The notes beneath the pieces are model-generated. The model had not been told where the DNA came from, did not search any database, and worked only from the letters and a program-made list of their open reading frames with translations. 64,000 nt of DNA, from positions 6,008,495 through 6,072,494 of the forward strand of contig KK106982.1 of the NCBI GenBank assembly GCA_000611775.1. Direction: 5' to 3'. Each line of letters begins with the position of its first letter. Within the stretch, counting starts at the first letter, position 1. The translations under genes were made by a program, and so were the position numbers. Below, in pieces: positions 1-27,523 of this stretch. The DNA is from Umbilicaria muhlenbergii. Lineage: Eukaryota > Ascomycota > Lecanoromycetes > Umbilicariales > Umbilicariaceae.

Positions 1-1180
1 ACTGACGCTTCAAGGCTTTCATAAGTAACAGTCAACTTTCTGTGATTGTGTTGTCTTGATCATCAATTCATGCTCAGGTTAAATCATCTGTGTTTGAGAT
101 TAATAAAAGAACCTTGACAGACTTCTTCTTTTTCTGAGATGAGTATACATGTGACACTTCAGTGAATGAGGTGTTCATCAACTGAATGAATGTTTTCACA
201 CACTCCCCTGATTCCCCTGTGAACTCTGAGATTCAGAAAAGTGTCATGATGTTGCTTCACACTTTTCTTGTTATGTCATCTGATTGATGAATAGTGCTGA
301 TGAATATTGATAGATGAGGTCCTGTTGTCATCACTTGTTGCTCATTTACAGCAGGTGTCTCTCATTCTTCAGTGATGACCTCTTTGTAAATATGTGACAA
401 GGAATTTGATTCTCAGTCTGAGGCAACAGGCTTCACTTGAATCAGAGTGACTGAAAGTTCTGTTTCCCTGTTATATGTGTGTCTCTCTGTGTTACCAGTT
501 TCACAGAGGGACCTGAGTGAGTTGTGTTGAGAGTTGAAAAGTGATGATGACTCTCATCATGCTGATGAAATAAGCTTGTCTCAGAAGCTCAGATGATTGA
601 TGTTCTCCTCTGAGTTGTCTTCCTGCTCTGATCTGTTGTTGACTTCATCACATGTTGACAACTGTCTGATCAGCTGTGATCAACTTGAATCCTGTGAGGA
701 CTTCAGTTTTTCTTTAATACTCAGCTGTTCTCAACTGTCACTCTCCCCCTTCCTTATTGACTTCATCCACTTTGATTATCAGTCATCAGTGGCAGTGAGC
801 ATCAGCGATTTAGTGATGAGGATATGAGTTAGTATCATTCACTTAACACTAGCGCAATGCACTCTGATCTGCTGATCTCATGTTGTAGCTCATGGCCGCT
901 CAGAGCGCTTTTATTTGTGCCATTTGTGTATTGTGCAAATGTTGCTTTTATCAATGCTATTATTTCACGCAGCTTTGCCGTGGAAATCCATAAGAGCGCA
1001 TAATGTATACAAGTCAATAACATTGATGATGCCACTCTCAACTGTCAACATCATTATAGTTCACTGAGTGCTAGGTTTATTCCATCTGATTCTTATGATT
1101 TACGTGATGATGTTGTTGAGTTTGCACATTGTTAATTCAGTGCTATGTTCATCTTTCACGTTTAAAGTACTATAAGTGAT

Positions 1181-1235
1181 GAACATTCATTGAACGTACT
1201 TGTTGTTCAATGAACATTGTGTGGGTTCATTGAAC
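1181..1235. repeat. palindromic TTCATTGAA cluster 1
   Basis: Three near-palindromic copies occur within 55 bases: GAACATTCATTGAAC, GTTCAATGAAC and GTTCATTGAAC. The same motif recurs in five other clusters in the island and nowhere that I noticed in the gene-bearing half. The clusters appear to lie at segment boundaries. Confidence 0.7.
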
Positions 1236-2224
1236 TTTCAAGTCATGAGAGAATATTGCGTATAATGCAGACATTGCAAGATACATCTATACATGATTAA
1301 CCTCAAATGACTGTAAACTCATTCATCATCCCTTTCTATGAGGTATATGTGTAGTGCAGGTTGTGAATTGTCTCTTGATCTTTCAATTCACATGTCGTGT
1401 GCTGACTTGTAATCATCACCCTGAACATCATCATCATATGATGCAGCTGCAACTGCTTGAACAGATCCTCAACCTCATACTGCTTCTGTGACTCTGACGC
1501 TGTCATACTCATCATCATCATCACTGCTGAAGCCTCATTCCTCAGCCTGCAACTTCTTGATGTTGATGTTGATGTTACACTCAGCTCCTGCTGAGGTCAC
1601 ACTCAGCTTTCATTGCTCAAATGACATCTAACGCTCAGGAAAGTGCTGAACGATAGAATTGATTCAGTAGTGTAGGCTTTGACTATCAAGAACACATTGT
1701 TAGCCTGATTTGAGCAACATTAAAATGAAGAAAGACAGCCAAAGAGAGAAAGGAATAAATGAGTCATGATTCAAGTGTCACTAACATTGAGAGTGCTAGC
1801 TAGAATGTTGTTACTAATGCATTCACATGTTCAACAAGTCTTTCAAGAATTTAAAAAACTTACATGTTTAGTTCTCCTTCTCTTGAATCTTCTTCTTCTC
1901 TCATAATGCAGTCACTGTCTTCTTGCCTCTGTGAGTATTAATAAATTTCTCATAATTGACCTGATCATTGATGATACTGTTACTCACTCAGAAGCATTTC
2001 ATCTTCATGATGTTCAATTTCACTCATCTTGTGAATTGTGTTCAGTTTCAACCTTAATCAGCAGGTTCTCTACATGGCTTCTTATGCTTCTTCATTTTTA
2101 TCAACAGCATATAAAGGTTCACTCTCTTAATGTTAAAACTGTGCTTCTCAGTGTTGTTGAGTTCATCTGTTGATTCAGAACTGAGCTGATTCTTGACTGC
2201 TGAATGTTTAACATGCCTTGTGAT

Positions 2225-2456
2225 GTTCTATGTCACATTAGCGCTTCATCATAAGTGACAGCTTGATATGTCTTGCCTTTTTCTTGTCTTCATCATTAAT
2301 GTCTTCTTCATCCTTGTCCTCACCCTCTTCTTCACTCTCATTTTCTTTGTTGTCTTCATTGCTGTTTCTCTCAGACTTCTCTTCATCATCACTGTTGTCC
2401 TCCTTACTGCTCTTCAGCTTCAGTCAGTCTTTGTAGAAAGTGCTTCTATTCAGTGA
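2225..2456 (-). pseudogene. acidic, Glu/Asp-rich coding relic
   Basis: The minus strand here encodes a strongly acidic run rich in Glu, Asp, Ser, Asn and Lys (for example SKEDNSDDEEKSE). It resembles the acidic Ser-rich stretch in the relic near 20.3 kb (DRSDEEDSSEE), and a similar run lies on the minus strand near 600-660. I infer that parts of 0.5-2.5 kb are an inverted copy of the same repeat family. The family is not recognised, and no reverse transcriptase, integrase, protease or capsid motif is visible. Low-complexity acidic tracts could also be similar by chance. Confidence 0.35.
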
Positions 2457-5294
2457 TTCTGAGCTAGAAGGGTTGTTTCAATCCCTTGACAAATGCAGTG
2501 ATGAGCTTGAAAATCATTGACTGTTCATCTCATACATTGACAGGTCATTCAACATGTCAGCATATGAGTTGTCAACTGCTTTAACATTCATTGCTTCTTC
2601 AACCTTATTCATTCTGATCTGCTGATGTACCTGGTGTAGCAAAATACTCAAAATAGCAGTTTGTTGAGTCTCAACCTGAGCATACCAAGTGTGTTGTACT
2701 TGATTTCATATAGCTGCAGCATTATGATGTTAGCACACTCTCCCTGTGTCTGAGGTCATCACTTACTCATAACCCTTGAGTCATTAAACCTCTTGAGCTT
2801 AAATACCCCTGATTCATATTCTCTGATGCAATGTGCAATCATTGTTATCATGAAGAGCAATATGTTGACTGGCAGTGAATCAAACATGTCTTTCATATAG
2901 ATTAGGTAGGCTATACTCATATTTGTTTTCATGTACATCATCTGTATTAATCTGTTGATGATGATTCAGGCACAGAATTTAACCTTGAGTGACTGCATCT
3001 TCATCAATCAATGATCAGCACTCAACACAGGTTCAAGTCACTTGCCTTGTCACATGTGAAATTGTCTGTTTCAAGCAATCATTCTGCAAGGTTCCTGATG
3101 TCCTCACATGACATCTGCAGCTGTCAGTCATAAGAGCTGACAATCAACTGTTGTATCTGAGTCATTGAGTGACTGTGAAAGGCACTAAATGAGTCATAGA
3201 GCTGTCAATGTTAATTATGATTTATATAAGAAGTCAGCTCTTCCTACCTTGCAGGCCTTCACAGCAGTGAGAACATTCTGCATCTCAGCATGTTTCTTGT
3301 CTGTGATTGTTCTCATTCATCAAGTCATTCTTGTTCAAGCGTCACTCATTCTGTCACTAAGTCACTGTTTGTTAATATCTGGCCATGAGGTGCTTTCTGG
3401 TTCAGCATTGCTGCTGAGTATTCATGCCTTCAAGTATGCTGTACAAACTGACATCAACAGTTCATGATCTGACATTGAATGACAAGGCCCTCAGCAGAGT
3501 GCCTTTCCTCATAAGTACTGAGTTGAGATATCTGAGGAATTTTCACTATCATAATCTGAATTGAGGTTGTGGTTTTGTGAGGTTGACTTTTCAGTAGAAG
3601 ATGAATGTGAAGTAGAGATCACTTCTCTTGTAAAATGCCTCAGTGATTGCTTCAAATGATATTCAATTGCTGACCTGAACTGTTAAACTGTTAGTATTGA
3701 ATTGCTGCACTCTCTGTGTGATAAACACTTACCCTCATACTGATGCAGTCACCACCTATGAAACTGAATATGATATCATTATCATGCTGTTTCTGCACCT
3801 GCTTTATAACAAGGACTTAACACCTCTTTGATGTCTTCTCATGACTTACAGCCTCTGAATGATCACGCTTCACCTGTAAGTAATTAGGTTTTGCGTTTGC
3901 TTGAATCAATTTAAAGTAAACAGTGTTTACTGTTTGTTCTGTATTCAGATCATGACCTTTCATAGTGCTGATGATGCTCAACGCTGATTGACTGAGACAG
4001 GATGATGTGATAAATATAAAGAATTATTTCATGATGCTGTTTTGAAAGGTTGTTTTGAAAGATTGTTTTGAGAAGGGTGCTGTTATTTCAACATGTCACA
4101 CTGGTAAATTAGTGACGTGTCAGTGAACTAGCAGGAGTTTGTGCAGTCACATGCAGGATTACAAGTAATCTGTTTAATGAACATCAAGAAGATGTTGTGA
4201 GTCTTGACAGTCACTGATACTAAAAATGTGAGCAGTTGACTAAAAATGCCATCACAACAAGAGGTGCTGTGACAGAGCCTTGCAGCCTGTAATCTGTGAT
4301 GTAACTTCAAGACTTTCTCTTCTGATGTGTTATTTCAACCAGTGATCATGATTCTGACAGGCAAGAGATGTACAAGAGATCAGATGCTGCCATTCACAGT
4401 TTCTTCTAAGCCTTTATATTCAAAACAGTAACACAACTGTGTAACACTGACTTCCTCTTGAGCGCTGACGCATTGACTGTGTAGTGTATGCACACCGGCA
4501 TAGTGTCTCACTCAAAGGCTTGAGTGTGAGATATTAGAAGAGAATGAAGTGCACAAGGCCTGAGGCAATACTGATGATGACATGTCTTAATAAGCCATGA
4601 TCACAATCTGATGACAGCAGGTTACACAATGATCTTCAGATTAACAGATATCAGTTTCCTGCTCTTTTGTTCATTGATATTAAGTCAAAACGCCTCAGTG
4701 AAGGCTTTTTCCTCTCAGAATTAAATCTTCCTCATAAACTTCATAGCCTGCTTCATATGATTGAGAATGTTCATCTGATTGTGATACCTACTAATAACTT
4801 CTGTTCAAAGGCTCATTTCCGTCACCATCTAGATGCAATTAGTGATGAGTGAACAATTTTCAGAGTTGACTTTTTATCTAGGAGTAGGTATTTATACTGT
4901 GTTGATGTTAATTTTACAGCAAACATGTGTTGACCTGCTGATTGTTGATCAGGGCATCTACAGATGATTAGATGACTTAATCTTGCAGTGATCCTTGAAA
5001 TGTATCTTGAACACCTGAAATCTCACTCCTTTTGATCATGAAGAAGAAACATATTGACCTCTCAGTGTGCATCTCTTTCAGGGTCATCTTTCATTCCTGC
5101 TCATTTGTGATGTGCATGCTCATCACTCTTTTACACTTATATAATATGACATCCTCATCATCCTGATAGTTCAACTCCCGGGCAATCAATGTCAGGAAGG
5201 TGAGGAAGTTCAAATCATTCACAGTAGTTATGTCCTTTGATGCCTCAGTCTTTAGCAGATCCTGTGGTCTACAGAAGATGCTGTGACATGCATT

Positions 5295-5567
5295 TCAGTG
5301 AACCTGTATCATAATATATTGAATGATTTTTGTTGATTCACCTTTCTTGCTGTCTGTTTGTGAGACGGGTCCTGCGGCTGAACATTGAGATGTGTCAATC
5401 ATGTGACTTGAGATTGAAGAGACTGATTCCTCATGAGGGTTTAATCTTCTCTTGCTCTTCACCCGCCTCCTCTTGTTGTAATTGCACCGTTGTGCCATAA
5501 ATGTGAGGCATTTGTTGCGCCACTTGTCAGAAACGCTGCAGAAGATGTGATCAAATTCATGATACAC
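5295..5567 (-). pseudogene. basic coding relic, unrecognised
   Basis: A 90-codon open stretch on the minus strand carries a Trp-containing segment (SDKWRNKCLTFMAQRC) followed by a Lys/Arg-rich tract (KRRRVKSKRR) that would serve as a nuclear signal. It lies in the segment between repeat clusters 1 and 2, and upstream minus-strand sequence (5.6-6.0 kb) also looks protein-like. I do not recognise the family. It is less CpG-depleted than its surroundings. It may belong to a transposon-encoded DNA-binding protein, but that is a guess. Confidence 0.3.
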
Positions 5568-6065
5568 TGATTTAAAGGCTCATCATAGTAGCTCTTTGAT
5601 CCTGCTTGTGTTTAGTCAGCCCTCTAAGAGACTCAGGTTTCTCATTTGAGTCTGCAGTTGTGTTAATATTAAGGCATACACATGATCATCAATATTAAGG
5701 TGATTGTGTATCAGGTCACTTGTTCATGTCATTGAGTTGACTTTCTTCAGATTCTTCATCATGTAGTTTGTTGAGGATGATGAATAGGTGCTTTTGATGC
5801 AGCATTCAGAAACACACAGTGACCTGATGTTTAAAATGCAAAGCAGAGTCTTTGGTGCTACCAGTTCCTCTGAGACCCTCACTGCGTCTAAATTCAATTA
5901 ATACTTCATCACAGGCAGACGCTGAAGGTTTTGTGACTTCATGAATGAGTTGAAAATTTCAGTAAAGGTCTCTTTATACAAATGATGACAGTATATCACA
6001 CGCCTCTATTTCAGGGACGTCATGATAATCATCATTGTAAACATGTTCAGTCAAATATGCAGTCA

Positions 6066-6140
6066 GTTCATTGAATGAAAACCAACATTCATTGAACTAA
6101 AATCAACGTTCATTGAATGAAAATCAACATTCAATGAATG
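6066..6140. repeat. palindromic TTCATTGAA cluster 2
   Basis: Four copies of a roughly 21-24 base unit (core CATTCATTGAATGAAAATCA) lie in tandem. Each contains the palindrome found in the other clusters. It sits 4.9 kb from cluster 1 and 4.5 kb from cluster 3. Confidence 0.75.
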
Positions 6141-7139
6141 CTATCTCCCTCAACTGTAGTACAACATCACTTGTGCTCCTCACTCAAGAAAGTCCTCTTC
6201 ATAGATTGAATTGTACATGTCTCAATCACTGAAACTGTTGAGATAATAGATAGTCCTCTTACATTCTCAGGTTTTCCCTGTCATCACTGATATGATGTGT
6301 ACGCTCCTTATGATTGTGAACATCATATAGAACCTTTGGCCCCTCACAGACTGAAGATTCTTTGAGGAACACTCTGATCAATCACTCAGTTCAATCATGT
6401 CATGTACATCATGTTGACGTGCCTTGTTGAGTGGTTTGAATAGGTCAATTAAAGCATCAGTATGATGAATGTTCTTTTCCTTGTCATTTCATCACAGTGA
6501 ATCTATCACTGATGCAATAAGCTGTAATTTCCCTGGTAGTCGCCTGTTTAATATGTCAGGTGCATCAGTGATATGATCAGGCTGTTCCTGAATCAGAACA
6601 CAGTCACACCTTCAATTCTCAGACTTGTTTTATCAGTCAGGCGTGCAATATACTCTCTCAGCTATCAGGACTTCAAGGTCATTCACATTCTTCTCATCCT
6701 GTTTTCAGCACTTCAGCGACCCGTGTACACATATGTGATATGATTCAATTCAAGATGAGTCTTTTGCTTTATGATTCAAATCCCTGTCTGATACTGCAAT
6801 GTCATTCATAGCATCTTGATGTTCTTTTACAAAACCTGCCAGGGCATCTAGTAAGCCTGAGATATCAAGGGTATCAGTGAGAGTTAAAACAGAGCATCAC
6901 ACTTTGAGGTTGAGCCTCACTGACTGTATTAGTGAGGCTTCATTTCTTTTTGAGAGGCCTTTCAGCTTCTTGAGTGAATAAGCTCAGCTGAGTTTGATAG
7001 CTGAAGTTATCATTGCATTATGTGATGTTTGGCTGTCCCTGATACCACTGTGTAAGATGATGTCTTCCATAGTCAGTAGTTTCAAATGATGAGTGTTATG
7101 AAGCAACAGTTGTTGTTGAAAGGTCTTCTGCTTGTTTGT

Positions 7140-9345
7140 TCAGTTAAAGTATGCTTTTACTAAGTACTTGTGAGCGGCTTCACTATGTTCTGTATCAACA
7201 TTGTCTGCAGCGCCGTATTTGTGAATGTGTTCAGTGTAGTGAGTCATCACATGTAGTTTTGAGATGTTAAAGTGCCCTTTGTTCATAATAGATTCAGAAA
7301 GCCTCAGATGAAAAAAGACATACTTAAGTCTGTTTATATAAAACAAAGCATGTTGCATGTATCAAAGGATGTCCTCATCATGTGAATGATACTGTGCCAA
7401 AGTAACAAAGTTCATCATTGCTCATGTGAAATGCACTGCTGCAGAAGCATGAGGAGTCAAGAGTGATGCAATTACAAAAATAATCTGAAAAACAATTGAT
7501 CTCTGATCTGCTTCAATTCATTGTTTGACACTGCTGTACTTCATGAATCTTTTTAAGCCTGAGAATGCTGAAATCAGATGAAATCTCTGATCAAGATGAA
7601 TCACCTATAAGGTGAAGTTGATTAAACCTCACACCCTCTTCCTTCTTCTTGCAGTGGAAACACTCTTCTCAATAAGTTCACTCAATCATTAAACTAGGTA
7701 AGTAACCGTCCCTTTCAAGAGTTGATGAAGTACATCAATCATCATGAATTCATGTATGTTAACTTGATGATGAGCTCATGTGAAATTGATGATGAAATGA
7801 ATTCAAGTGCTGTCATTATTCAGTATCTCTTCTTCCTCCTGACGCTGAATTTAATTCATTGTTGTTTGATGAGTTCTTGAAGATCAGTTGCCTTTCAGGT
7901 TTAAAAACTAATTGAGAGAGACTTGACATATAGTGCAGTGTTGATTCATCTTTACCTCTGTGATCAACACCTGTTCCTCATAGTCAATCATGAAGCCTGT
8001 AATAACAGAGTAGCAGCATCTGATCTTCTCATCTGCACACTTTATCAAGATATCCTCTCTAGCAGCTGTCTCAACAGCTAATACTCATCAGTCTTAGTTG
8101 AATTGCTGTGAGCATGTGAAGTACATACGCTTTAGAATCAATGACAGTGTCATATGTCAAACTCTTGCTTTGATGTTATCACTGTCATTCCTCACAATCA
8201 GCAGGAAACTCAGAAGTACTAGATCAGGTCATGTCTGAGAGCGCCTTGACTGTCAGTTCAAATTCCTTATGATTAAATATACTGATCAAGCTGATAGATC
8301 ACCTTGATGCTGTGTCAGAACTGTCTTGTCAGTGAAAATCAACAGTGACACTATTGTTGCATCATCTGGAAGTTTCATCTGTGTCTCTCATCATCAGTCT
8401 TTAGTATGCATCTCACTATAGACCCTCTTGTTTTCAGAGTTATATTGCTGAGTTGAGGCATATGTCAGATTACTGTTGAAGGCTTGATGGCCTAATAAAA
8501 ACTGAAGAGTGTTGATGATGTCTCTGTATTATATGCAATATGCAATGTTCATTACCTCATCATAGGTAGATTTCACTGTAAAGGTCTGAGATGTTCACTC
8601 ATCTTCACCTCTTACAAAGCTGATATCATATGAAATCTGATGTAGCTTATCTAGCCATTCCTCTGCATTCTTGAAACTTAGGAGTGAATGAAAGTGATGC
8701 AGATGAGAATTCTTAAAGAATCTGTTCACACTTCCTTTCATTGCCTGAGTCTGATGCAGTCAGAAAGTGAAGGCATAGTCTGTCTTGCTACAAAACAGGT
8801 GATAATTTATGTTAATAGATGCATTTGTGCTCTGCTTGTGATCATAATTTATAGAGGCCTTTAAATGAGCTGTATTTAAAATGCCTTCAGCTCAGCGGCC
8901 TGTTGCCTCTTGAAATGATTCAACTCATAAGGATGTTGATGTTGACAAAAGATCAGATTGAACTGATATGCCTTCTGCCTGCATTAATTCTTGTTTCATA
9001 AATGACTGTGAATTGATTGATGTTCTTCAGGGAATTGAACGTCCTTGATTGTCAGGAATATTCAGGAGGCTGTCATTCATGTTGACATTGTAATTCATCT
9101 CAAAGTTCATATACTCATTGTCTTGTTCCTCTGATACCTCTTCTGTTTCCTCAGGTATTGTCTTGATAGTCTCTCAGTTTGTGTCATTTTGTTCATTTGT
9201 TGCTAGAGGCATTGATGACAGTTCACATCATGAGATTCTTCATGATCAGTTATGAACATGAACTGAGCACCTTGCTATATGATGTTTTAATGCATTACTG
9301 TTATTCACACTCTTTCTGCAATCATCACACACATGAAACATGCTT
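7140..9345 (-). mobile_element. Plavaka (CACTA-like) DNA transposon relic
   Basis: Read on the minus strand, the parts appear in family order. Near 9280-9345 there is a C2H2-type zinc finger (CDDCRKSVNN, then NALKHHI). Near 8350-8820 comes the central transposase, with EEWLDKLHQI, YRDIINTLQFLLGHQAF and RVYSEMHT, the last two being hallmarks of fungal Plavaka transposases. At 7140-7358 is the C-terminal part (KLHVMTHYTEHIHKYG, DTEHSEAAHKYLVKAYFN). In the family the central block acts in DNA cleavage and the C-terminal block is conserved but poorly understood. Positions where the family has Trp (before TSQTFTV, before YRDII) are TGA here, so TGG to TGA change has broken the frame several times, and a frame change is also likely near 8.2-8.3 kb. 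Terminal inverted repeats were not identified. Certainly inactive as it stands. Confidence 0.75.
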
Positions 9346-9688
9346 CTCAACAAAGCACAAACTGTCTTTGCTAATGTTTGATTGCCTGAGTGTCTAGATG
9401 CAGTGACCGGGATGATGTTTCAATATTAATATCATCAACTCATGATTAGTGTCAACACGGGTGTGGGCTGTATCTGTTTTCAATGAAGTCAGTGTAGACA
9501 TTTCACTCCTCAAGGTGTGGCAGACAACAAAACATGAATAAGCCTTTGAAGAACAGGGAGATCAGTGAGTAATTCACACAACTCCTCAGTGAAAACAGTG
9601 TTGAGAAGTTTGATCTGATGCTCTCAGAGGTGTGTGGGTCAATCAAGACTCTGTTCAAATGCACTACACTCTTGACAACACATCAGAG

Positions 9689-9899
9689 TGAAGCTGATGA
9701 GATGCAGGTGTTGCCTCCTATGTCTTACTATTCATGCTCAGGTCATCAGTCTTCACTTGAGATTACAAGTTGTCACGCACATGAATGCATCTGAGAAACA
9801 TTAAAGGTTAAAATGATATGACTTTCACCTGAGCCACCAGTCTCTTCACTCAGCATGCAGGAGTATCAGGAACGTCACTGACAGCAGAGTTATAATGAC
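9689..9899 (+). repeat. dispersed direct repeat, copy 1
   Basis: About 210 bases beginning GAAGCTGATGAGATGCAGG match 18220-18435 in the same orientation. Differences are mainly transitions with a few small indels. The two copies lie in different cluster-bounded segments, about 8.5 kb apart, suggesting a shared element part. Confidence 0.75.
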
Positions 9900-10239
9900 T
9901 ACAGAGGAGATAAGATGAGTGATCTCTGAGCATGAATTTACATTGTAACAAGCATGTTATGAAGATATCTGAATGTAGAATCATCAGTGACTGTTCTCAA
10001 AGGTGATGATACATCATGTGCCTCATGAAAGAAGCCTCACATGCAGAACAAAGTTCTGAACCAGGATCAGTGATTCTGTGACACAAAGCATTCAAGTTTG
10101 CTTCATGCTTCATATTCATGTTACACTGCATCTACATCTCATGTGCATATTTATATTCACTTACTTGCCTGACAGTCTTGTTGACACTGCTTGTCTTCTT
10201 TTTTACTCATCACACATCTCCTTTCTTCCTCTCTTCATT

Positions 10240-10860
10240 CATTAACTTGCTTAATTATCAAGTCAAGTAAGCTTGTCTTCTCTCTACTCATCAGTCTTCT
10301 TTCTTCCTTTTTCTTAACTTTTCTTTACTCATCAGTCTTCTTTCTTCTTCTTTCTTAAGACAGTAAGTTTGTCTTCTTCTCTTTACTCATCAATCTTCTT
10401 CTTTCTTCCTCAACACAGTAAGCTTGTCCTCTTCTCTCTACTTATCAGTCTTCTTCTTTCTGCCTCAACACTTTTCTACAATTCATGTGTTTATCTGATG
10501 CCTTCTTGATTATTCACTTGACATCATCTTTCTTTCTCAAGACTCTCTTCTTTCCTTCTTGAGATTCTCACTTATGCATTGAACAGAGCATAGTTCACTG
10601 AATGTAATATGATTCATTGAACTGTGCATCTTCTTCTTTCTGTCTCAACATTGTAAGCTTGCTCTCTTCTCTGTACTCATCAGTCTTCTTCTTTCTGCCT
10701 CAACATGTCTTCACAATTCATGTATTTGTCTGATGCTTTACATGTTTACTCATCTGACATTCATCTTCCTTCCTCAAGACTCTTCTTTCCTTATTGAAAC
10801 TCTCACTTATGCATTGAATGAATCATAGTTCACTGAACATCACAAGGTTTATTGAATGTC
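10240..10860 (+). repeat. pyrimidine-rich nested tandem repeats
   Basis: A TCTT-rich block repeats a unit of about 60-70 bases (core ACTCATCAGTCTTCTTTCTT) from 10.26 to 10.45 kb. A longer unit of about 222 bases is then duplicated (from about 10.43 and 10.65 kb), each copy ending in CTTATGCATTGAA and a palindrome cluster. It lies directly before the coding relic starting at 10.94 kb, so it may be the 5' non-coding part of that element. Confidence 0.65.
10593..10622. repeat. palindromic TTCATTGAA cluster 3
   Basis: Two copies (GTTCACTGAATG and GATTCATTGAAC) lie at the end of the first 222-base tandem unit. This is a member of the island-wide cluster family. Confidence 0.65.
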
Positions 10861-10890
10861 ACACAGTTCAATGAATTAAGCTTAATGAAC
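10812..10890. repeat. palindromic TTCATTGAA cluster 4
   Basis: At least five degenerate copies occur (such as AGTTCACTGAAC, AGTTCAATGAATT), followed at once by a short CACCT tandem run near 10.9 kb and then the coding relic. Confidence 0.65.
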
Positions 10891-10938
10891 ACATCACCTC
10901 ACCTCACCTCACCTCTTATCTCACCTCTAACCTTAATA

Positions 10939-12250: not shown

Positions 12251-12299
12251 AAGAATATCAACTTTATCATGACTGAATATTTATCTCAAGAGTGCTGAA

Positions 12300-14650
12300 A
12301 AGACTGTGCCTGCTTATTCTGTCACAACCCTCTCAAGGTGACTGACAATGACAAGATTAAAATCACTGAGTTGAAATCCCCCGTGTACTCATACCAAGCA
12401 TTTGGGGTATTCATCATGGCGGAGATGAAATGTTGGCAGGGGGGGGGTTGAAACACAGATGACATGAGACTCAGCAAGGTTTGCAACAATTCAGTACACA
12501 CTGCACTCATGTCACTAACTAAGTGATAGACCATCAAGCAATTAACCTTGATCATGTTAATGTGAATCTTGAAGATTACTCATCACAGTGTCAAGTCTGC
12601 CTGAAAGAAGAAATGAACTGATTTACACCTCACACAGGGCATGAAGAAGGTGCTGCAACAACTTAAATTTATCTGTTCATTCAGGAATGCCTACAGGATT
12701 AAATGCTCTTGCATGAATGCAAGCTCAGTCAATCAGATGATCTTCATTAAAGGATTGAACTTCATTCTGATGCCTGCTGCCCTGATGCTGCAGTGGATGA
12801 ATATGTGTGTGATACATTTGAACCTACAAGATTCTCATTTTGAGTGGCAGATCTGACACGCCTATGAGGATTTGAAACTCAACAAGATCACATCAGCTCT
12901 TTCAGAGACAGATCATCCTCTGATTACGCCTCAACTCCTTGATGCAACAAAACTGAAGGACTCAAAATGAATTGTCTTTGAACAATCAAAGTTGATTTGT
13001 GTCACCACCTCAGGGAGTTATCCTGAGCATGTCATGAAGAAACTTGAACATTGATTTACTCCCGCAAGGTCAACACTCAGAAGCAAACAGCCTTCACAAC
13101 AATGAGTAGAATGACAGCTATGCTGAGGCTGAGTCATCATCAATGAAGCGCATACTCAGTACTCAGCAAGTTCATTTGCTGTAAGGCTCATCCTGACATT
13201 GAGACAGAGTCTCATCCCACGTAAGTGATTTCTGACAGAGACACTGTTTGAGCAATCCTCTGCTCAGATGACACATTGAGCAGGAACATTACAGGATGAA
13301 TCATGAATAATGAAAACCTTGATGTCTGTGTGAAAAGAAAAACAGGCTCACTGCATGAACCTTCACATGTGTATGACTCAGGCACTTGTAGCGCTAGGAA
13401 AGGAGCATCAACACATCATTGAAGATGATGATAAGGGAGGCTGACTCACTGCATCAGAATACATAGTCAACATTTAAAAGGTGATTTCAACCTTATGGCT
13501 AAAGAGATCAGTGAAGATGTTTAAATTTTTCAGTAACTCACTTACTGAACATATCTCAAACATGCATGTTGTTATCAGCTGCAGCCTACCAGAGCAGTTC
13601 TGTGAAATGATCAACAAATCAATGATAACAGCTTTCTTGAAGATGATGAAGAAGCATCAAGTTGCAGTGATGAAATGAGAGGTGACTTGAGGCTTTAAGA
13701 GGAACCCTCTGAAAATAAATGTGAGACAATGAATCAGATGAATATGAAAAGTGAAGATCTTAAGTTCCTGACTCTTGTTGAAGGTGCATCTCATCACAAA
13801 AGACTTGAATTGAACTGCTGAGGAGATTCAGGACAACAGATGAGCAAAAACAGTATTAAATTCATTATATGAGCTGCAGAGTTCAGTAAACTCTCCTTAC
13901 AAAGTGCTGATGATGACAATTGAGGACAAGAAGAACTCCTTAAAAGCTGCAGCTGTACATCACCTCATCACAGAAGAGTGAGATGCAGGTGAAAAAGTAA
14001 TATTCTGCTGCATGTCCTCTGTCAGCGCTTTAATTTTATACTGAGTAAGTTCACCTTTGTGAACCAGCTAACTCTTCTCTGCTGATGAAACAGTGTTGAT
14101 GATGAAGATCTTGATTATTGTGCTGATGACTGATCATGAAGCAGTTCCTCCGCAATGTTATTGAAGGATGATCAGCATTGATGCATGAAAGCCTCTTCAA
14201 GACTAAGGTAATGAAGATCATGAACCTCTTTCAGGAGGAGCTCATGATGTTGACAGCTCATTTAAAAGAAAGACTGCTGACTTACATTGTGTTGATGATG
14301 AAACTTATTGATGTAGGTTATACACTGCACAAGGCTTGAATACAGGTTCAGTTTGAACCTGAATGAATGAAACATGATCAACAACAAGTGAAGAAACAGG
14401 TCAATCAGATTGAGCAGAAGCAGTCAACACTGACATATGCAATTTAATGTCAAGCATCAAATGTAGAGAGGGTCATATATGATCATCAGCATCATCAGAT
14501 GTGATTAATGAACTTAGCTCTTAACACAAAGATGATGACTGAAGATGTGTTTCAATGAGGCTTGCAGAATGACGTCAATGATGAATTACAAATCATTGCA
14601 TCAGAAGATAAGCTATCAGAAGGGCTGAGGCAGGTGAATATCATATGAGG
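12300..14650 (+). pseudogene. SNF2-family helicase relic
   Basis: Three blocks in the right order suggest a SNF2 ATPase. Near 12.39-12.49 kb is SYQAFGVFIMAEM followed by TDDMRLSK, which matches the Walker A region ADDMGLGK with both Gly codons changed by G to A. Near 14.0 kb is AGEKVIFCCMSSVSALI, resembling the start of the C-terminal helicase lobe (EKVIIFCHMPSLSALI type). Near 14.38-14.44 kb is QVKKQVNQIEQKQSTL, resembling motif VI (QxxGRxxRIGQ). SNF2 proteins are ATP-driven DNA translocases. In this context it is probably a repeat-family or mobile-element gene, because the surrounding segment is bounded by repeat clusters. Heavily decayed. Confidence 0.55.
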
Positions 14651-14912
14651 GTGTTAAAGTATTGTCTTGAGCAGTCAGATAACATATCATAATTCACAAT
14701 GCAAGCATACACTCAAGATTAAGAATTGTTTTCTATAATTGTGTCATGAAGTACTGACACTTAATAACAAAGTCAGTGACGTGCTCTTTCATGTATGTGA
14801 AACATAGCATCAGGTATACAGACTGAGCCCTTTTTAAGTTATCATAATTTAAAAGTGTTAGTTTTGAGACCCCTCACATATCATAATGCGTCAACAAACA
14901 GGGGCGGTACCC

Positions 14913-14968
14913 GGTTCATTGAATGCAAAACCGCGGTTCAATGAACGCAAAATGTGGTTCAATGAACA
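14913..14968. repeat. palindromic TTCATTGAA cluster 5
   Basis: Three copies (GGTTCATTGAATG, GGTTCAATGAACG, GGTTCAATGAAC) are spaced about 20 bases apart. This cluster keeps unusual CpG and CGG (GGTACCCGGTTC, CCGCGGTTC), so it may show the least mutated form of the repeat. Confidence 0.7.
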
Positions 14969-15621
14969 TAGAACTTTAATTGCATGAACGCATGCAACTA
15001 AGGTACTTGTCAGCAAAGCTTTATCTCACTTACTCACTGTCTGCTCACTCAATTGAATTAGTAGTCTCATCACATCTATCAATCATTTATCACAACTGCT
15101 CTACATACTACTACGGCCGCACTTTCACCTTAATATTACCAGTGTGATTTGAAATGAGGTCAGTCAATGTGTGATATGAAGTCACTACTTAAGCAAGATT
15201 CAGAAACACAGAGATGATTGCAGTATCTGAGTTGAAGGGAGGATCTTAAACAAGAAAGAAGAGTATGAGAGGAGAAACTGCATGATGATATGAATCATGT
15301 TCAAGCAGAGCAGGCAGTCACTATTGCAGACTTTGACAAGCTGAGTCACAATTTCTATGTTGTTCAGGCTCAATTTCAAGAATTTATGACAAGACAAGAG
15401 TGAAGGCTGAATTACATGCAGTTAACTCACTTTGAATGAAATGAAATGATTATCTTGAAGTCTTATGAGTTGAGATTCAGGTGTATGAAAGTCATGAGTG
15501 AAGATCACTTGTCATATTGTGAAGAGACAGTTGCATGAGATCATCATGATTGAAATCAACAAATCATCACTGACATCATCAGCCTCACACTGAATATTGC
15601 TACGCTGAAGGTATCCTCCCA

Positions 15622-16269
15622 CAGATACAGTAGTCAAGAAATGATGTCATCATGTAGTCAAGAAACAGCGTCATCATGTTGCATTACTCAAGCTCAATGT
15701 GAGGCTGACCTTAATACTTGCAAATAATCAGCCAACATCATTCAAGTTGTGAACCAACAGAGTTTGAAGTGCTCATGATCAGCAACAGTAGAGTCACAAG
15801 CGCTGTTTGCACAGAAAGATATGAGATTCATGAACCTCAATGACCTTGATTGTGAGGCTTCAACATCAAGGAAAAAGTGACACCTCTGTAGCAGCAGCTA
15901 TGTGAATTCAACAAGCAGAGATGATGAGACAGATGATGTCATTCAGATTATTACTTCTCAAGAAACAGCGTCATCATGTAGTCAAGAAACAGCATCATCA
16001 TGTTGCACTACTCAAGCTCAATGTGAGGCTGACCTTAATACTTGCAAGCAGTCAGTCAACATCATTCAAGTTGTGAATCAACAGAGTCTGAAGCGCTCAT
16101 GATCAGCAACAGTAGAGTTGCAAGTGTTGTTTGCACAGGAAGATATGAGATTCATGAACCTTAATGACTTTGATTGTGAGGCTTCAACATCAAGGAAAAA
16201 GTGACGCCTCTGTAGCAGCAGCTATGTGAATTCAACAAGCAGAGATGATGAGACAGATGATGTCATTCA
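15622..16269 (+). repeat. 324-bp tandem duplication
   Basis: Two head-to-tail copies have a period of exactly 324 bases, measured at both ends (GTCAAGAAAC at 15657 and 15981; GATGATGTCATTCA ending at 15945 and 16269). Differences are mostly transitions, plus a short local duplication near 15963-15990. The period is a multiple of three. Copy 2 has an open stretch rich in Ser, Thr, Asp and Cys, so this may once have been a 108-residue protein repeat. It lies directly upstream of the PRP28 fragment. Confidence 0.8.
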
Positions 16270-16439
16270 AACTATTACTTCAAGACTGAGGAGACAACAC
16301 AGCAAGCATTTATCATTATGACATCTGCTCAGGACTCCACTACAGTGAAGAAAACATATGCTTAAATAATTATAAGCTTTACACTCATACCACACCTTCA
16401 TCTTGCGGCAGCAAATGCTTCAAAGTTGATCAGTCTCAA

Positions 16440-17335
16440 GAGCAGAACATGAAGGACCTCAGTTTTAAAGAACTGATTAATAAGATTCTGAATGCCCTGC
16501 CTGTTGCAAACATGAAGCCGGACTCAGAAGAGGCTGAGGATGTCATTGTGATGAGTCAGCACTTAAGTGACAAAGATTATTATAGACAAACAATGATGTA
16601 CACAGCCACTATGCCCTCAGCTGTTGAGCACATCATCAGAAAATATCTACACAGGCCTGCTATTGTTACTATAGGTAACATGAGTGAGGCTGTGAGAACA
16701 ATTGAACAGCGCGTTGAATTCATCAACAGAGAAGATAAGAGGAAGAAACAGCTTTTAAAGATACTGTCTTCAAGGGAATTCACATCTTCAATCATCATCT
16801 TTGTCAATATCAAATGAAACTGTGATGCTGTTGCTAGAGACGTAAAGCATATGAGCTTTTCATCAGTCACTCTTCATGATAATAAAACACAAGAGCAGAG
16901 AGAGGCTGTGTTGACATTTATACACAACAGCACTACTGATGTTCTGATTGCTATGAATCTCATCAGTAGAGGTATTGATGTGCAAGATGTCAATCTTGTG
17001 ATCAACTTTAACATGACAATGAACATCAAGAGCTACATGCATCAAATTGATCATACAAGTCATGCTGACAAAAGTGATGTTGCTATTATGTTCCTTGACA
17101 ATGAGGACGCTGATGTTATGTAAGATTTACTTATCAGTGACTGATGACTTTTGAGCATTTTACTGACTTGATCTCTAGATATGATCTCAAGTAAATGCTG
17201 ATGAAGTTGTTGATCTCAAGGGTTCCTGAGGAGCTTCAGAAACATGAGGCAGCACAACAGAAATCACAGAAAGGCAGCAGGCAGAAGAAGATCAAGAATA
17301 ACAGCAGCTTCACTGACAAGAAAGGCTGACAGTGA
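16440..17335 (+). pseudogene. PRP28: PRP28 (DEAD-box splicing helicase) C-terminal fragment
   Basis: This is a mutated copy of about the last third of Prp28/DDX23, the U5-associated helicase that swaps U1 for U6 at the 5' splice site. Visible are NALPVANMKPDSE, the SAT-region segment QTMMYTATMPSAVE, RPAIVTIGN, IIIFVNIK, QEQREAVLTF, SRGIDVQDV, and a damaged motif VI where the family has HRIGRTGRAGKSG (here HQIDHTSHADKSD). A spliceosomal intron of 59 bases is still present at about 17120-17178 (GTAAGA to CTCTAG), between the codons for DADV and YDLK, so the copy was made from DNA. The C-terminal tail (VPEEL to TDKKG) is included. Nearly every difference from the family is a C:G to T:A transition. 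The N-terminal two thirds with motifs Q, I and II are absent. Confidence 0.85.
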
Positions 17336-18220
17336 TCATAAGCACATGTAGTATTATCATTTAGAACATGACCTTCAGGAGGGCCTCAAGCAAGGTGATT
17401 AAAAATGATGCATTTGTCAAGTTAAAAGAACTGATAAGATCATGACACTCTCATCTCAGAACATATACTCTATACTTGTGTGATTGAGATGCTGTAAAAT
17501 CAGGTGTAGATGAATCAATCAATGATGTTTCTTGCCTTGCTCACCTGCCTGAACTCATCACTCAAAATGTTGTAAATGAGCAAGGCAAGGAACTTCTACA
17601 CCTTCCTCAGCCTCACCCTGAGTCTAGAAAACTGAACTAGCAACTCACATTACAGCATCATAACTTCTCATCATTAGACAGACATCCTCACTACTCAGTA
17701 ATTCACTTCTCACGCAGCACTGTGCTGATTTTCCATGTGATGAGTGATTACAGCTTTGATGGTACAGAGGAGGAGAATGTGGAACTTAAGAAGCTTAACA
17801 CTGAAGTGATATGTCTGATAACATATGTGCTGTTCACGCTGATACAGCCTTGTTAACATGATGTCTAGCTTGAGGATTCTGATAACTTTGAAAACTGAGA
17901 GAAGCTTGTTCATGCTGCAGAAGGCTTGAAAGAAGGCCTCAATTAAAACTTCAGTCCTCAGTTGATAATTGCTACACAGGAGATATATGACTGATTCTTA
18001 GCAAAGTTTTCATTGTTGTTCAGGTATTGAAAGAAATATGCACAGCTTTTCATCAAGTTCTCTCATCAGCAAGTTTGTATACTCAGTGTATGTTGTCAGG
18101 CACCTGTCATTAATCATCATTTTAAGAAATATTCTGAACAGACTTCCTGACCTGACTACATCATGTCATTGCTACAGTTTGAACCCCTCTGTCTTCAAGA
18201 CACAGTCACAAATTCATCAG
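17336..18220. other. degenerate sequence downstream of PRP28 fragment
   Basis: Short protein-like stretches occur on the plus strand (LAHLPELITQNVV near 17.54 kb; FDGTEEENVELKKLN near 17.75 kb) that I do not recognise. They may be further captured or element coding sequence. No RNA gene or regulatory element is seen. Confidence 0.3.
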
Positions 18221-18435
18221 CATGAAGCTGATGAGATGCAGGTGTTGCCTCTTATGTCTTATTATTAATGCTCAGGTCACCAGTCTTCACTTGAGATTAC
18301 AGGTTACCACGCATGTGAATGCAGCTTGACAACATTAAAAGTTGAAATGATATGAGCTTCACCTGAGCCATCAGTCTCTTCTCAGCATGCAAGAAGTATC
18401 AGGAACATCATCAGCTGTGAAGTTGCAATGAATAC
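18220..18435 (+). repeat. dispersed direct repeat, copy 2
   Basis: This is the partner of 9689-9899, same orientation. It starts GAAGCTGATGAGATGCAGG and remains alignable through AGTATCAGGAAC. The divergence is mostly transitions. Confidence 0.75.
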
Positions 18436-18930
18436 TTGCTAAAACTGATCACCTTCTCATGAAACATCTTGAGCTTAAAGTTAACAAAAGAAGTCTTCAT
18501 GATGCTTGAAAACTGACATCACCCTTCTGATCTCATTCACATTATACAGGTGTCTCACTGTCATGATGAAAATATCTTCAGAGTTGATAATCAGGGTTAC
18601 ACAAATGTATCTAGGTTGATGATACAGCTGTTTTGATATGTTGAGCCTTCACTATACAACTATAAGGTGAAATGCACAAAGAATAAGGTAGAAACTCAGG
18701 ATTTCTGCAGAATGATGATCAGTCTCTTTATTCATTAATGTGCAATGAAAATATCTGTGAGTTGAGAGACACTTCAACTCTTCAAATCTCTTTCAATGAC
18801 ATTACAGCTTTCCTTGCCCGCACGGTTTCAACAGATAGCATATACTAATGTAGCAGAACCTCAATCAAGATAATGTGTCAAGATCAAAATTGTGAAGGAA
18901 GTGCACACCCTTGGTGTGTTCTTTTCATTC

Positions 18931-18982
18931 AGTTCAATGAATGTGAGTTTGATTCAATGAACACATCTATCATTCATTGAAC
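18931..18982. repeat. palindromic TTCATTGAA cluster 6
   Basis: Three copies occur (AGTTCAATGAATG, GATTCAATGAAC, CATTCATTGAAC). The cluster lies 4.0 kb from cluster 5 and precedes the last segment of the island. Confidence 0.7.
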
Positions 18983-19033
18983 ATGCTTACAAGTGTTGCA
19001 GAACAGTGGTTCAGATACTTTTCATCATTCATT

Positions 19034-19345
19034 AATTTGTTATCATCAGCAGCAAAACATAAACTCATGACTCACTGCATCAACACTCTCCTTGCCTCTC
19101 ACTACCCTCTTCATTGAACACTATTTTTAACCTTCAAGACATCAACTTCTGCTACTCTCATCAACAATTTCATCATGACTCATACATCAATCTGTTATCA
19201 TCAGCAGAAAAACATCAAATCACAACTCACTTCATCAACACTCTCCTTGCCACTCATTATCCTCTTCATTGAACACTTTCTTTAATCTTCATGACATCAC
19301 CTTCTGCTTCTCTCAGCAACACTCTCATCATGATGATACACTGTA
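19034..19345 (+). repeat. 153-bp tandem duplication
   Basis: GTTATCATCAGCAG occurs at 19041 and 19194, giving a period of 153 bases. Both copies continue through CATCAACACTCTCCTTGCC and CCTCTTCATTGAACAC. As at 10.2-10.9 kb, a pyrimidine-rich tandem repeat sits just in front of a coding relic. Confidence 0.75.
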
Positions 19346-19399
19346 GTAATAGCTCATCATCTGACAGTCACTCTAGAATCTACAGTGAAAGATGAAGTC

Positions 19400-22300
19400 C
19401 TCAAATGAGCAGGAGTGAGACATAATGTTTATCAACCAGATGCATGAAACTCCTTCATAACCTTTCATTCAAACTAAAAAGCACTCAGAGCTGCTGAGTG
19501 AATTTAACAGATGAATCTGAGACCACTTCTCCTATACATCATTAATACTGTCAGTGAACATAAAGGACTATGTGATCAGAGTGAAAATATTGAATGAGAC
19601 AAAACCCCTCACTGTCACTTTACATCAGTGTGAGTGATGTTATACTGATCAGTCTGACCTCATGTCACACAAGTTCATTAAATTCAACTTCCTGCTCAGG
19701 TGATGAAACCTCATTTCAAGCTTATTAAGTCACTTTATTTGCATGCGCATGAATATTATCATCAATTCACAATACTCAACACCCGTGAGAAGGATACAAC
19801 ATCAGAGTCATACAACATGAGCTTAAACCTCAGAGGACTCTTCATGAAGAGTGAGATCTTAAATGACCTGCCTGATCTAAGCGCGCTCTACAACACAGTG
19901 AGAGCTGAAAAGCTGAAGTATGCACATGCAACTGAGCGTGAAATCCTTCAAATGATAAAAGACTACTGAGACAACTGAATAACTCCTCTTGTGTCATCAT
20001 ACTGACTGTTACTCTACGACCTATACCACTTCCTGAGTGATGCTGAGAAGGAGTGCATTCAGCATCAGATTTCATCAGATCTGAGGATCAGGCTGTTTAA
20101 GGTGCATGACCTGAATATTTACTGAGTGAGGAGTGATGACCTTTTCAGACCTTTCAAACCAGTCTCAGCAGTCACATGAGGAGGCGTGACTGACTATGAT
20201 TTTGAATTCAGAGCGGCTAAAGCTTTATATGATAAGTGAAAGAGAGAGCTGAACTCAGAACCTGATCTCATTGAACTCACTGAAGCATTTAAGGACATGA
20301 CAGTGAGTGAAGAGGCTAAAGAGCTGACAGACAGAAGTGATGAAGAGGACAGCAGTGAAGAATCAACTATCAGATCTCAAAGGGAGGATTCAGATGAGCT
20401 CAAGGATCAGAACATCACTGTGAAGAGAGTGAATATAATCAGTCAAGGTGAGATTACTCAAAGTCAGGTCAATTCTGATACTGTGCACACAGCTACCTTA
20501 TCAAGATCAACCTTGATGAATGACTCAGCTTCATCTGCTGTTCAACCTCACCTGTTAACCTCTGGTTACCAGTTTTTGCAAATGATGGCTCATCAGAAAA
20601 GACAGTTTGAGCTCACATGTCAAAACTCACCTCATGACAGCTCACTCACTCAACGCCCTCTGCTACATTTCAATTCACCTCACTCAGTGAGTGAAACATC
20701 AGATCATGCTGAGCTGACTGTATCATTTCTGTCATGAGATCACCTGCCTCACTCAGCTCAGTCAGTCAGGTCTGATAACTTAATTGATACACTTCACCTG
20801 ATGAGTCATTCCACATCAAAAGAACCGTGATCATTACTCATACTCAATCAGCTCTCACTAATCAAGGAATACCTTGCGTTGACTTCATCAGCATTAAGGA
20901 AAGATGAGTTTAACTTCATTAAGCCTGCATTATGCATGACCTCATTGAGAATGAAACTCAGTGCATCAGGCTTTACCGCCAACAATCACTCACCTGCTCA
21001 GATGCGTTCAAAGCCTGAAACCTGATCAAGAATCCTCTCATCACAGCTCATAAGCCCTCATACACCTCATGATGTAACATCAGACATCATTCATCTCACG
21101 GCATCTCAGCTGACTGACATCACAAAGTGAGCTCCTACCTCAGAGCCTACCTGCACCTCAAGAGAAGCAAGGTTGAGGTCAGGTCTTCAGCTTAATTCAG
21201 TGAAACTTAAGATGTTGAAGAAGGATGATCACCTCAACTCTGCATCAGCTGAGGTTCCTGAACTGAAGAGAGTGAAAACAACCATCAAAGAAAGCAATCA
21301 AGAAGGTGAGATCAAGATTTCAGGCTCACCTCATGTTCTGAAGGTATACAAGAAGGAAGGATCAGTCAGAAGAAACATCATCATGAGTCACAAGAAAGCC
21401 TCAATCAATGTGAACTTTGCAGACTGATCAGTCTACTATCATGAGTTCAATTGAAGTTCATATGACATGAAAGACATAAACACAGCTCTGTCAATGAATG
21501 TGAAGCTCACTGACCACCTGATGCAACAAGTGATGAAACAGCTCACTATTAATGATCAAGTGACTTGATACAAGGCAGACTTTGATGCAAACAAAGCTCC
21601 TAAAGTCATATGATACAGTCTGAGCTCAGTCATCAAGCTCAAAGTTCAGTCTGATGAAGAAAACTGAGGAGCCGGATGATACAACCAGGTCTGATGAGGC
21701 CAATATGAGTTCATCAGTGAGGCAGGGGCAAGGAAAGGGGATTCAGTGATATTGAAGAAAGGCGCAGAAAAGAAGGTAAAGAAGTGAAAAGCAAGTGAGT
21801 GAAGTTTGAGTGAGAGGTCATTCATTCAAGGAGACCTTAAATTTGATTACACAGTCACTGTCATGAGGTCCCTAAGGTCAGGTAAGCACCTAGAACTTGT
21901 ACAGCTCATGAAGTCCTCACTGCTGACTGAAAGACCTGCTCAACTGAAGACCTCATGACTGATCATGCAAGAACCAGCATTACTGAGCTCAATGAAGGTA
22001 GATCAACCCTCAGAGATGAAGCTGAGGCTGTTGAGCATGAGCATCAGGTCAGAAGGACAATCTTCAAGTAATACACTTGAAAATCATGACGCGACGGAGA
22101 AGAAGGCAATCAGGAAGGTAGTGAGTGAAGAGGTGACATGAATGAAAAACAAGTTGAAAAAGATCACGCACCAGATGCTCATGATCAATGAAGCACTTCA
22201 GCAGATCTATGATGATGACTGAGACCTCCTCAACATCATTACCTTTTTAAAGCAAATCCAGGCAGACCTGGTCAACTTCATTAATGAGTTCACCATCAAC

Positions 22301-22500
22301 CTCAGTGCTCATCTTGAGGACGAAAGCAAGTCTAGGTTCAACAAGGCGTGATTTATGAACATGTGAAAGAAAGCTCTTGACAGGCATGATTACTCAGGTT
22401 TCATCATTGAAGATGACTGAGAAGGGGTTAGGAAACTGAATGTCTTGATGAGAGAGGATGAAGGGGATAGTCCTCTATCAGAAGGATACAAGGAATAGGG
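19400..22500 (+). pseudogene. acidic Ser-rich coding relic, unknown family
   Basis: A long degenerate coding stretch lies on the plus strand. Its first part (19.48-19.65 kb) is paralogous to 11.38-11.60 kb. Open pieces include a helical charged part (19.70-19.97 kb), a Ser/Asp/Glu-rich part with DRSDEEDSSEE (20.30-20.74 kb) and a Lys-rich part (21.17-21.43 kb). I see no reverse transcriptase, integrase, protease, transposase or capsid signature, and I do not recognise the family. Treated as a fossil: the frame is interrupted many times, mainly through the island-wide mutation process. Confidence 0.45.
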
Positions 22501-22900
22501 AGCAGAAGCAAGTCATTCAGGGGCTGACTTTGTTGAGGAAGGAAGATGTTGGTCAGAGCTTTCAAATGTAGAATAAGTAGCCTAGCATAGATCAATGATG
22601 AGCAGGATGACTGGCTGAGGGAAATATTAATTATGTATATGTGGTGAATGTGCGCTCATGGCAACAACAAGTTGCTAAATGAGTGCTCAGATCTAGAATA
22701 TAAGCGCTAAAACTGTATCTCTCTAAGCGAAAATATCTGAGCGGGCTGCCACTTTGCGGATGAGGGCGTGCTGATTCCCTGAGTACTTTTTTCTTTTTTG
22801 CTCACTTTGTTGTGTGTGCTTGATGTATTGAGCGTGCTCAGTATAGGGGGCCTTCTGTTTCTGTGTGTTTACTTGTTCCAGTCTCAATCTTGATGTTGCG

Positions 22901-23590
22901 GTCCGTAATAGGAAGGCGGCTCAGGAATTTGAAGACTCAACAGCTTCATTCAGTCAGAAGATGACTGAACCTCTGAGATTGACCTTGAGGCTTCTCAGAT
23001 CGCTTTCTTTCTGTTGACAGTTCCTTAATTCTTTTCTCAGATCAACTTTGAACAACCAGGTTCCTATCAGCTCCTCCGTCTCCTCAAACCTCAGGCAACC
23101 TCGTTGATTCGATAGAACAGATGAAGCACAATGAATCTCTGGCTCGTGATTGATGTCTCCCAATTCAGTGGCAATAAATCCCTGCGCAGGTCACCAAAAT
23201 ATGCGCCAGATCAGGGGGGTCCAAAGTATTGGTTGAATTGGTGCATAATCTAGAAGCAAGAAGCCTGCTACGAAGCTATTAAATGTGGCGGCTTACCTAA
23301 GCCGTCCTACAACGCTGAAACCGCTCGATTGCCCAGCCTGATCTGCGTGGCGCGGAACGCCAGGACACCGGCATAGAGCCTCCATCCATTTGGCGGCCAC
23401 TAAGAGCCTCCCAATTTAGAACGGCTTGGTGCGTCCTCGTGGGTGATTTGGTGAGGGCCTGCAGACACTGAAGACGGTGGCGATGGAATTGACTTCAACG
23501 TCGATTCAGGAGGCTTATTATTATTGATGTCCTCAGGCCCTTTTCTTCTTCACCGATTGTCTGAATGACGACTTTCGTCGCGTCCGAATC
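22901..23590. other. intergenic, island edge
   Basis: Composition becomes normal here (TGG, CCA, TCG and CGA reappear). No gene is supported. It contains the upstream region of the gene starting at 23591. Confidence 0.6.
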
Positions 23591-27510: not shown

Positions 27511-27523
27511 GGGTATATATTAG
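27511..27523 (+). promoter_or_regulatory. possible TATA box of the CXC gene
   Basis: GGGTATATATTAG lies about 215 bases before the chosen ATG at 27736. The frame is open without an ATG from 27488 to 27736, fitting a 5' leader, but an unseen upstream exon is also possible. Confidence 0.4.

Follow-up and report, generated by a model that had tools for sequence, protein, structure and literature searches.

The DNA studied here is a window of 64,000 nucleotides from the genome of the ascomycete Umbilicaria muhlenbergii (assembly GCA_000611775.1, contig KK106982.1, positions 6,008,495 to 6,072,494), in which one copy of a heavily mutated repeat of ~22 kb adjoins unaffected, gene-bearing DNA. The host assembly comprises 34.8 Mb in seven contigs (C1-C7), from which 20 stretches (L025-L044) were extracted for comparison. 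Part of its isocitrate lyase matches 1dqu of Aspergillus nidulans best (293 bits), ahead of 5e9f/5e9g of Magnaporthe oryzae (269 bits) and 5e9h of Fusarium graminearum (265 bits), which points to a filamentous ascomycete outside, in all probability, the sordariomycetes. The repeat copy occupies positions 800..22762 and carries a signature of C to T changes throughout. Its left edge is defined by 7 of the 15 non-self matches, which start at query positions 796-807 with 91-94% identity and lie on C1, C3 and C5, and its right edge falls at 22762/22763 in L030 and L037, the two extracted copies that extend that far. Its two edges hold short sequences that match each other in inverted orientation (GTGGCAG at 789, CTGCCAC at 22746). 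Within the repeat, at 16449..18041 on the minus strand, lies a piece of the host gene for the PRP28 helicase, which aligns without gaps and with 87.5% identity to L025:1758-3350. The captured segment amounts to 1593 bases and comprises the C-terminal part of the gene together with its 3' flank, carried by the repeat as genomic DNA, while the intact PRP28 gene resides on C3 (L025), surrounded by DNA of normal composition.

According to the initial annotation, made from the letters of the sequence, the left part of the window has specifically lost TGG/CCA and TCG/CGA. We counted triplets on both strands in 1-22900, with 23500-64000 as the control, and compared them with the expectation from base composition; the ratio of observed to expected was 0.02 for CGA/TCG (control 1.05), 0.22 for CCA/TGG (control 1.24) and 2.81 for TCA/TGA (control 1.14). 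Because the dinucleotide frequencies of 1-22900 differ as well, with TpA low (0.51), CpA high (1.59) and CpG strongly depleted (0.15), 200 dinucleotide-preserving shuffles of this region were used as a second null model. CGA+TCG occur 9 times against a shuffle mean of 107.5 (standard deviation, SD, 8.2), CCA+TGG 116 times against 474 (SD 14), and TCA+TGA 2331 times against 1778 (SD 24), so that the loss is confirmed against base composition, the control half and the shuffles alike; the annotation was also right that TA is not raised and that CA is common. It had further reported 51 TGA in 1-780, with TGG, TCG and CGA missing, and our recount of the plus strand gives 52 TGA, none of these three triplets and 2 CCA. 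Among the triplets said to persist there, AGG (10), GGG (1), ACG (1) and CAA (9) do so, but GCG does not (0).

Mutations in the repeat can be polarised because the intact PRP28 parent lies on another contig. Alignment of the intact locus to the repeat copies among the extracted stretches gives 15 blocks, in which, taken together, 2511 of 2608 differences are C to T or G to A (1446 and 1065, respectively) and 97 are of other kinds, that is, the changes are almost exclusively C to T in the duplicated DNA and affect both strands. The same alignment bears on the idea that the signature is an artefact of base composition, or that the region belongs to a class of sequences, such as a TGA/TCA-rich satellite, that never contained the missing triplets. 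TGATGA-like runs are indeed numerous in the mutated stretch and the repeat contains internal 324-bp tandem units, but the alignment to intact PRP28 shows that the triplets existed and were altered, which refutes a composition artefact, and we give this explanation practically no credence.

The mutated fraction depends strongly on the two bases that follow the C. In the 15 blocks CCA (448/490) and CGA (516/622) lead, followed by CTA (232/415) and CGT (230/496), then by CCG (154/425), CGG (152/426), CGC (158/487) and CCT (140/530), by CAA (158/644), CTG (101/606), CCC (29/272) and CAG (53/605), and finally by CTT (57/668), CTC (46/654), CAT (29/579) and CAC (8/404). The rule proposed in the annotation, C to T where CA or GA comes next, was right: 91% of CCA and 83% of CGA sites are mutated. 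Whichever base stands at position +1, the rate is highest when position +2 is A:.245 for CAA (others.088,.050 and.020),.914 for CCA (.362,.264 and.107),.830 for CGA (.464,.357 and.324) and.559 for CTA (.167,.085 and.070). In a subset of 11 blocks, from which two gapped and two short blocks were dropped and in which the ranking is the same at the top, the mutual information with the mutated state at 800 unique sites is 0.123 bit for position +2, 0.105 for +1 and 0.026 for +3, and that of upstream positions is small (0.003 bit at -1, at most 0.0042 across -1 to -3). The target rule is thereby sharpened: the +2 base is as informative as the +1 base, and CTA joins CCA and CGA as a weaker target. 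The window's own copy is the least mutated (CCA 43/47, CGA 45/60, the four CpA contexts combined 9/214). When sites mutated in all seven copies are excluded, CGA (.645), CCA (.551) and CTA (.390) still have the highest rates and CAC (.018) the lowest. Adjacent mutated sites on the same strand exceed permutation by no more than ~1.8 SD in each of the seven copies, and we therefore do not claim strand processivity.

Expressed as dinucleotides, the rates in the 11 blocks are 0.525 for CpG, 0.456 for CpC, 0.192 for CpT and 0.113 for CpA. The first two far exceed the others, as would be expected if two overlapping processes, one acting on CpG and one on CpC, jointly mimicked a triplet rule. However, A at +2 is favoured in all four +1 classes, both in the PRP28 alignments and in the copy-to-copy counts given below, and a single rule suffices, so that we find a pair of processes very improbable. 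The alignment had also been suggested as a check for CpA as the main mutated site, and CpA instead proves to be the least-mutated dinucleotide class; with TpA low as well, classical CpA-directed mutation is rejected. Among the NCG contexts, TCG is the lowest (141/520; ACG 235/416, GCG 263/414, CCG 257/358; 11 blocks), on which ground mutation of the Microbotryum TCG type is rejected too.

We also considered slow decay with no directed mutator, in which cytosines in these contexts would be marked by the methyltransferases and then lost through spontaneous deamination. The genome has three genes of the DNA methyltransferase type, and the CpG depletion (0.15) is what such decay would produce as well. 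On the other hand, the top target, CCA, is not a CpG context, and CGC is mutated at only 158 of 487 sites; pure CpG decay is rejected, since CCA is the most-mutated context. In the seven full-length copies, CCA has received ~2.55 hits per site (from the 11-block rate), as compared with 0.005 per base for all substitutions that are neither C to T nor G to A, a ratio of about 500, which is steeper than we should expect from slow deamination. Moreover, of the 15 positions that carry changes of these other kinds, 4 are altered in all seven copies, 4 in all three copies that reach there and 5 are private, as compared with 127 of 789 C/G sites mutated in exactly one copy. Taken with these observations, slow decay appears improbable.

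The preference is not confined to the PRP28 segment. In the copy-to-copy comparison, which covers the other parts of the repeat without reconstruction and whose counts are not independent, as pairs overlap and tandem units recur, CCA (371/492) and CGA (7/12) again lead, A at +2 again ranks first whatever the base at +1, and CAG (65/6550) and CAC (43/4187) are among the contexts mutated least. The ranking departs from that in PRP28 in that CTA (591/1856) stands behind CGT (188/378) and CGC (196/553), and in that CCG is at 0/58. Nonsense codons of the predicted kind occur on all seven contigs. Among 150 matches to the reverse transcriptase profile PF00078 (RVT_1) that were scored out of 877 candidates, spanning all seven contigs, 682 TGA, 106 TAA and 15 TAG stops were counted, at least one stop is present in 149 of 150, and TGA outnumbers TAA and TAG together in 139 of 150; members of one element family are kin, and these are not 150 independent events. 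In 24 matches to DUF3435 there are 77 TGA, 22 TAA and 1 TAG, with 4 of the 24 free of stops. From the measured context rates applied to four unmutated host frames, 74% of stops are expected to be TGA, and a toy CpA rule on the same frames gives 2%. Stop-free matches to DUF3435 (tyrosine recombinase) include C2:2644591-2645539 and C1:10448531-10449236; the other 20 of 24 have stops.

The signature separates repeats from genes. It was found in all 12 AT-rich extracted stretches (L030-L040 and L043; G+C fraction 0.300-0.395), which were chosen as matching the repeat or adjoining the window and are not a random sample, and it is missing from six gene-bearing stretches of normal composition (L025-L028, L041 and L042) as well as from the control half; L029 and L044 are intermediate or mixed. 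Duplicated DNA is thus mutated and single-copy genes, including the parent PRP28 and the genes next to the repeat, are spared, as in repeat-induced point mutation (RIP). The ratio (TCA+TGA)/(CCA+TGG+CGA+TCG) is 4.5 to 494 in 13 AT-rich stretches (1-22900 and the 12 extracted ones), 0.41 to 0.54 in the six gene-bearing loci, 0.46 in the control half, and 1.5 and 1.8 in L029 and L044. The preference for CpA and the raised TpA/ApT of classical RIP are absent. The same 13 stretches have TpA/ApT values of 0.48-0.69, (CpA+TpG)/(ApC+GpT) values of 1.62-1.84 and composite indices of -0.92 to -1.30, so that every one of them fails all three stringent cut-offs (>1.15, <=0.75 and >0, respectively) quoted from van Wyk et al. 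2021 (PMC7882544, in excerpt). The control half, with 0.73, 1.18 and -0.45, is nearer to RIP than the mutated stretches, and the warning in the annotation that standard indices could miss the signature is borne out in 13 of 13 cases.

These results make it highly probable, in our opinion, that the genome has been subject to a repeat-directed C to T mutator of the RIP kind with the preferred target 5'-C-(C/G)-A-3', in which the first C is mutated. Both strands would be attacked, CCA becoming TCA and CGA becoming TGA, and, by attack on the opposite strand, TGG becoming TGA and TCG becoming TCA. A copy whose CCA and CGA sites are exhausted would be nearly inert as a target. The DNA beside the repeat is compatible with mutation spreading outward from it: the signature extends ~340 bases beyond the repeat end at 22762, the flank at 22763..23100 has few target triplets (1 per 100 bases in 22801-23100 as compared with 6-13 in 23101-23800), and the full density is regained near 23100; the search for copies of the flank sequence reached window position 22900.

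The presence of the expected enzymes also counts in favour of a process of the RIP kind. The annotation had advised looking for a RID or DIM-2 methyltransferase gene, and both types are present in the genome, in which the PF00145 profile matches at four places. An open frame of 1323 amino acids at C6:814627 matches PF00145 (2.1e-38) and BAH (6.4e-7; 29.7 bits, slightly below the cut-off of 30.8), and the protein matches PDB entries 9bap (1.1e-178) and 9baq (7.1e-178), titled DNA (cytosine-5-)-methyltransferase, which we take to be the DIM-2 of Neurospora crassa. The protein combines BAH and C5-methyltransferase domains and stands close to solved DIM-2 structures. A gene of the RID/Masc1 type at C4:3522938 has two exons with PF00145 matches (5.8e-28 and 1.5e-7); the exons are open and separated by one consensus intron (GTAAGT...CTAAC...AG). 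Its product contains PPCQ, EQT and QTRSR stretches, terminates shortly after the PF00145 domain and shows no BAH match at E 0.01; in the PDB search it matched DNMT1, DNMT2 and bacterial methyltransferases, the best at 3.4e-10. We take EQT to be a mark of RID. The short variable region of the protein was judged by eye, and the family description follows PMC2432034 and PMC7862722, both in excerpt. A third gene, at C5:2349218, is of the DNMT5 type, with an SNF2 domain after its methyltransferase part, and the fourth PF00145 match, at C1:6527376, belongs to a decayed relative of it. A 235-bp segment near the end of contig 7 (L044:8059-8293, C7:8059-8293) is 75% identical to part of the RID-type locus (L027:1794-2025).

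The RID-type methyltransferase of contig 4 may perform the C to T conversion before meiosis, and its target recognition would then rely on an A at +2, in place of the A at +1 that is read in Neurospora RIP. Whether the enzyme indeed reads the base two after the target C (C-N-A), so that the specificity of RIP is re-registered by one base, seems to us an even question. Alternatively, the same repeat-directed process could be run by the DIM-2-type methyltransferase, whose preference the target would then reflect. The second RIP pathway of N. crassa depends on DIM-2, and the homologue found here is open across its 1323 residues. Badet and Croll distinguish two pathways in N. crassa, one Rid1-dependent and another mechanistically distinct (PMC12543289, in the portion available). 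Against this assignment, in the N. crassa crosses that Badet and Croll re-analysed, the composition shift vanished when rid1 was lost and persisted when dim2 was deleted (PMC12543289), and we regard DIM-2 as an unlikely, if reasonable, candidate.

Several observations weigh against a repeat-directed mutator of the RIP kind. Intact PRP28 is unmutated despite the existence of copies that retain 82-87.5% identity to it along as much as 1.6 kb, at or above the limit of ~80% identity given for RIP in N. crassa (PMC5381629, excerpt); either the process is no longer active or progeny with damaged PRP28 were lost. The copies share, in 21 pairs, 28-49 more mutated sites than context predicts, and therefore some of the mutation may predate the spread of the repeat and the copies are not fully independent. 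Finally, L029, which bears an old, decayed duplicate of the DNMT5-type gene (C1:6527376-6527678; 79% identity with L028 across 947 bp), lacks the pattern: 66 of 169 differences are of the C to T or G to A kind, and CCA is mutated at 5 of 36 sites. A 227-bp fragment of the DNMT5 type in the window (47697-47922, 85% identical) likewise has 7 such differences out of 31.

Comparison with known systems shows both kinship and divergence. With classical RIP of N. crassa and most Pezizomycotina, which is RID-dependent and turns CpA into TpA, the process shares the near-exclusive C to T changes on both strands, many mutations per repeat copy, the sparing of genes, and the RID-type and DIM-2 homologues; it differs in that CpA is the least mutated, the products are TCA/TGA instead of TpA, the stops are mostly TGA and not TAA/TAG, and the standard indices are negative. 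Badet and Croll 2025 conclude that a CpA preference is common to RIP-like defences (PMC12543289). The TpCpG hypermutation seen in Microbotryum and in other Pucciniomycotina likewise has a triplet target in repeats, where TCG becomes TTG and CGA becomes CAA (PMC5381629, excerpt), and the CpGpA of that paper is, in the part available, the complement of TpCpG. As the annotation held, the present pattern is unlike it, with TCG the lowest NCG context and CGA turning into TGA.

CpG-biased C to T changes have been described in repeats of Tuber, of Aspergillus nidulans (MATE) and of Rhizoctonia solani (PMC4352252, PMC2621366, PMC7862722 and PMC4014442, in excerpt), and the loss of CpG with gain of CA and TG, reported also as a CA/TG rise in Uncinocarpus reesii, is shared here. 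The excerpts of these papers report contexts as dinucleotides and name no C-C-A or C-G-A target. For R. solani AG8 a table gives one C<->T single-nucleotide polymorphism per 214 bp at CpC and one per 370 bp at CpG, and its authors, in the part available, emphasise CpG and list no triplet (PMC4014442); such dinucleotide data could conceal a rule based on triplets, as far as the excerpts go. CpT-biased RIP in Botrytis, Magnaporthe and Colletotrichum truncatum (PMC4352252 and PMC6180176, excerpts) likewise affects repeats in ascomycetes and shows an altered dinucleotide preference, but CpT is the second weakest class here (0.192). Judging by the published cases biased to CpT or CpG, a CpA preference seems a usual trait of RIP and not a defining one. 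The contexts named in the literature at hand are CpA, CpT, CpG and TpCpG (PMC4352252, PMC2621366, PMC6180176, PMC5381629, PMC4014442 and PMC12543289, in excerpt), and our literature search, which covered mostly titles and the openings of abstracts, found no ascomycete RIP target CpCpA, CpNpA or CpGpA, an earlier mention in older surveys being possible. In the excerpt of a paper on lichens, mutated repeats have a G+C content near 16% (PMC12542154), unlike the mutated stretches described here. As judged from this partly available literature, the process works like RIP, but with a changed target, C-(C/G)-A, that is not named there.

RID-type and DIM-2 homologues stand here alongside a strong, clean and different target, so that comparison and swap offer a way to search for the portion of the enzyme responsible for target choice; to our knowledge, the determinant of the sequence preference of RIP has not been established. 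If the C-N-A reading is true, RIP-proficient ascomycetes with TCA/TGA products may have been scored as RIP-negative by TpA indices, or may have passed as merely CpG-decayed.

For the mutated stretch to the left of the repeat (1..800), the 15 non-self matches, from a scan that scored the best candidates only, include no close relative, and the only match elsewhere has 70% identity over 252 bases. The two tandem 324-bp units within the repeat lie at 15634..16281, and 23 such units are arranged head to tail at C4:4533996-4541447 (L033:1997-9448), with 21 of the 23 identical to the reference unit, which contains no CCA, TGG, CGA or TCG. The array looks like an amplification that postdates the mutation, with no preferred target left. 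The unaffected, gene-bearing part of the window extends over 23100..64000. Near the DNMT5-type fragment in this part, tandem repeats of ~81 bp occur at about 48186-48666. Further to the right, a likely carotenoid cluster is seen at 59184-62863, where a gene of the RPE65 family, carotenoid-oxygenase-like and spread over two frames, lies next to a lycopene-cyclase-like frame (below the cut-off).

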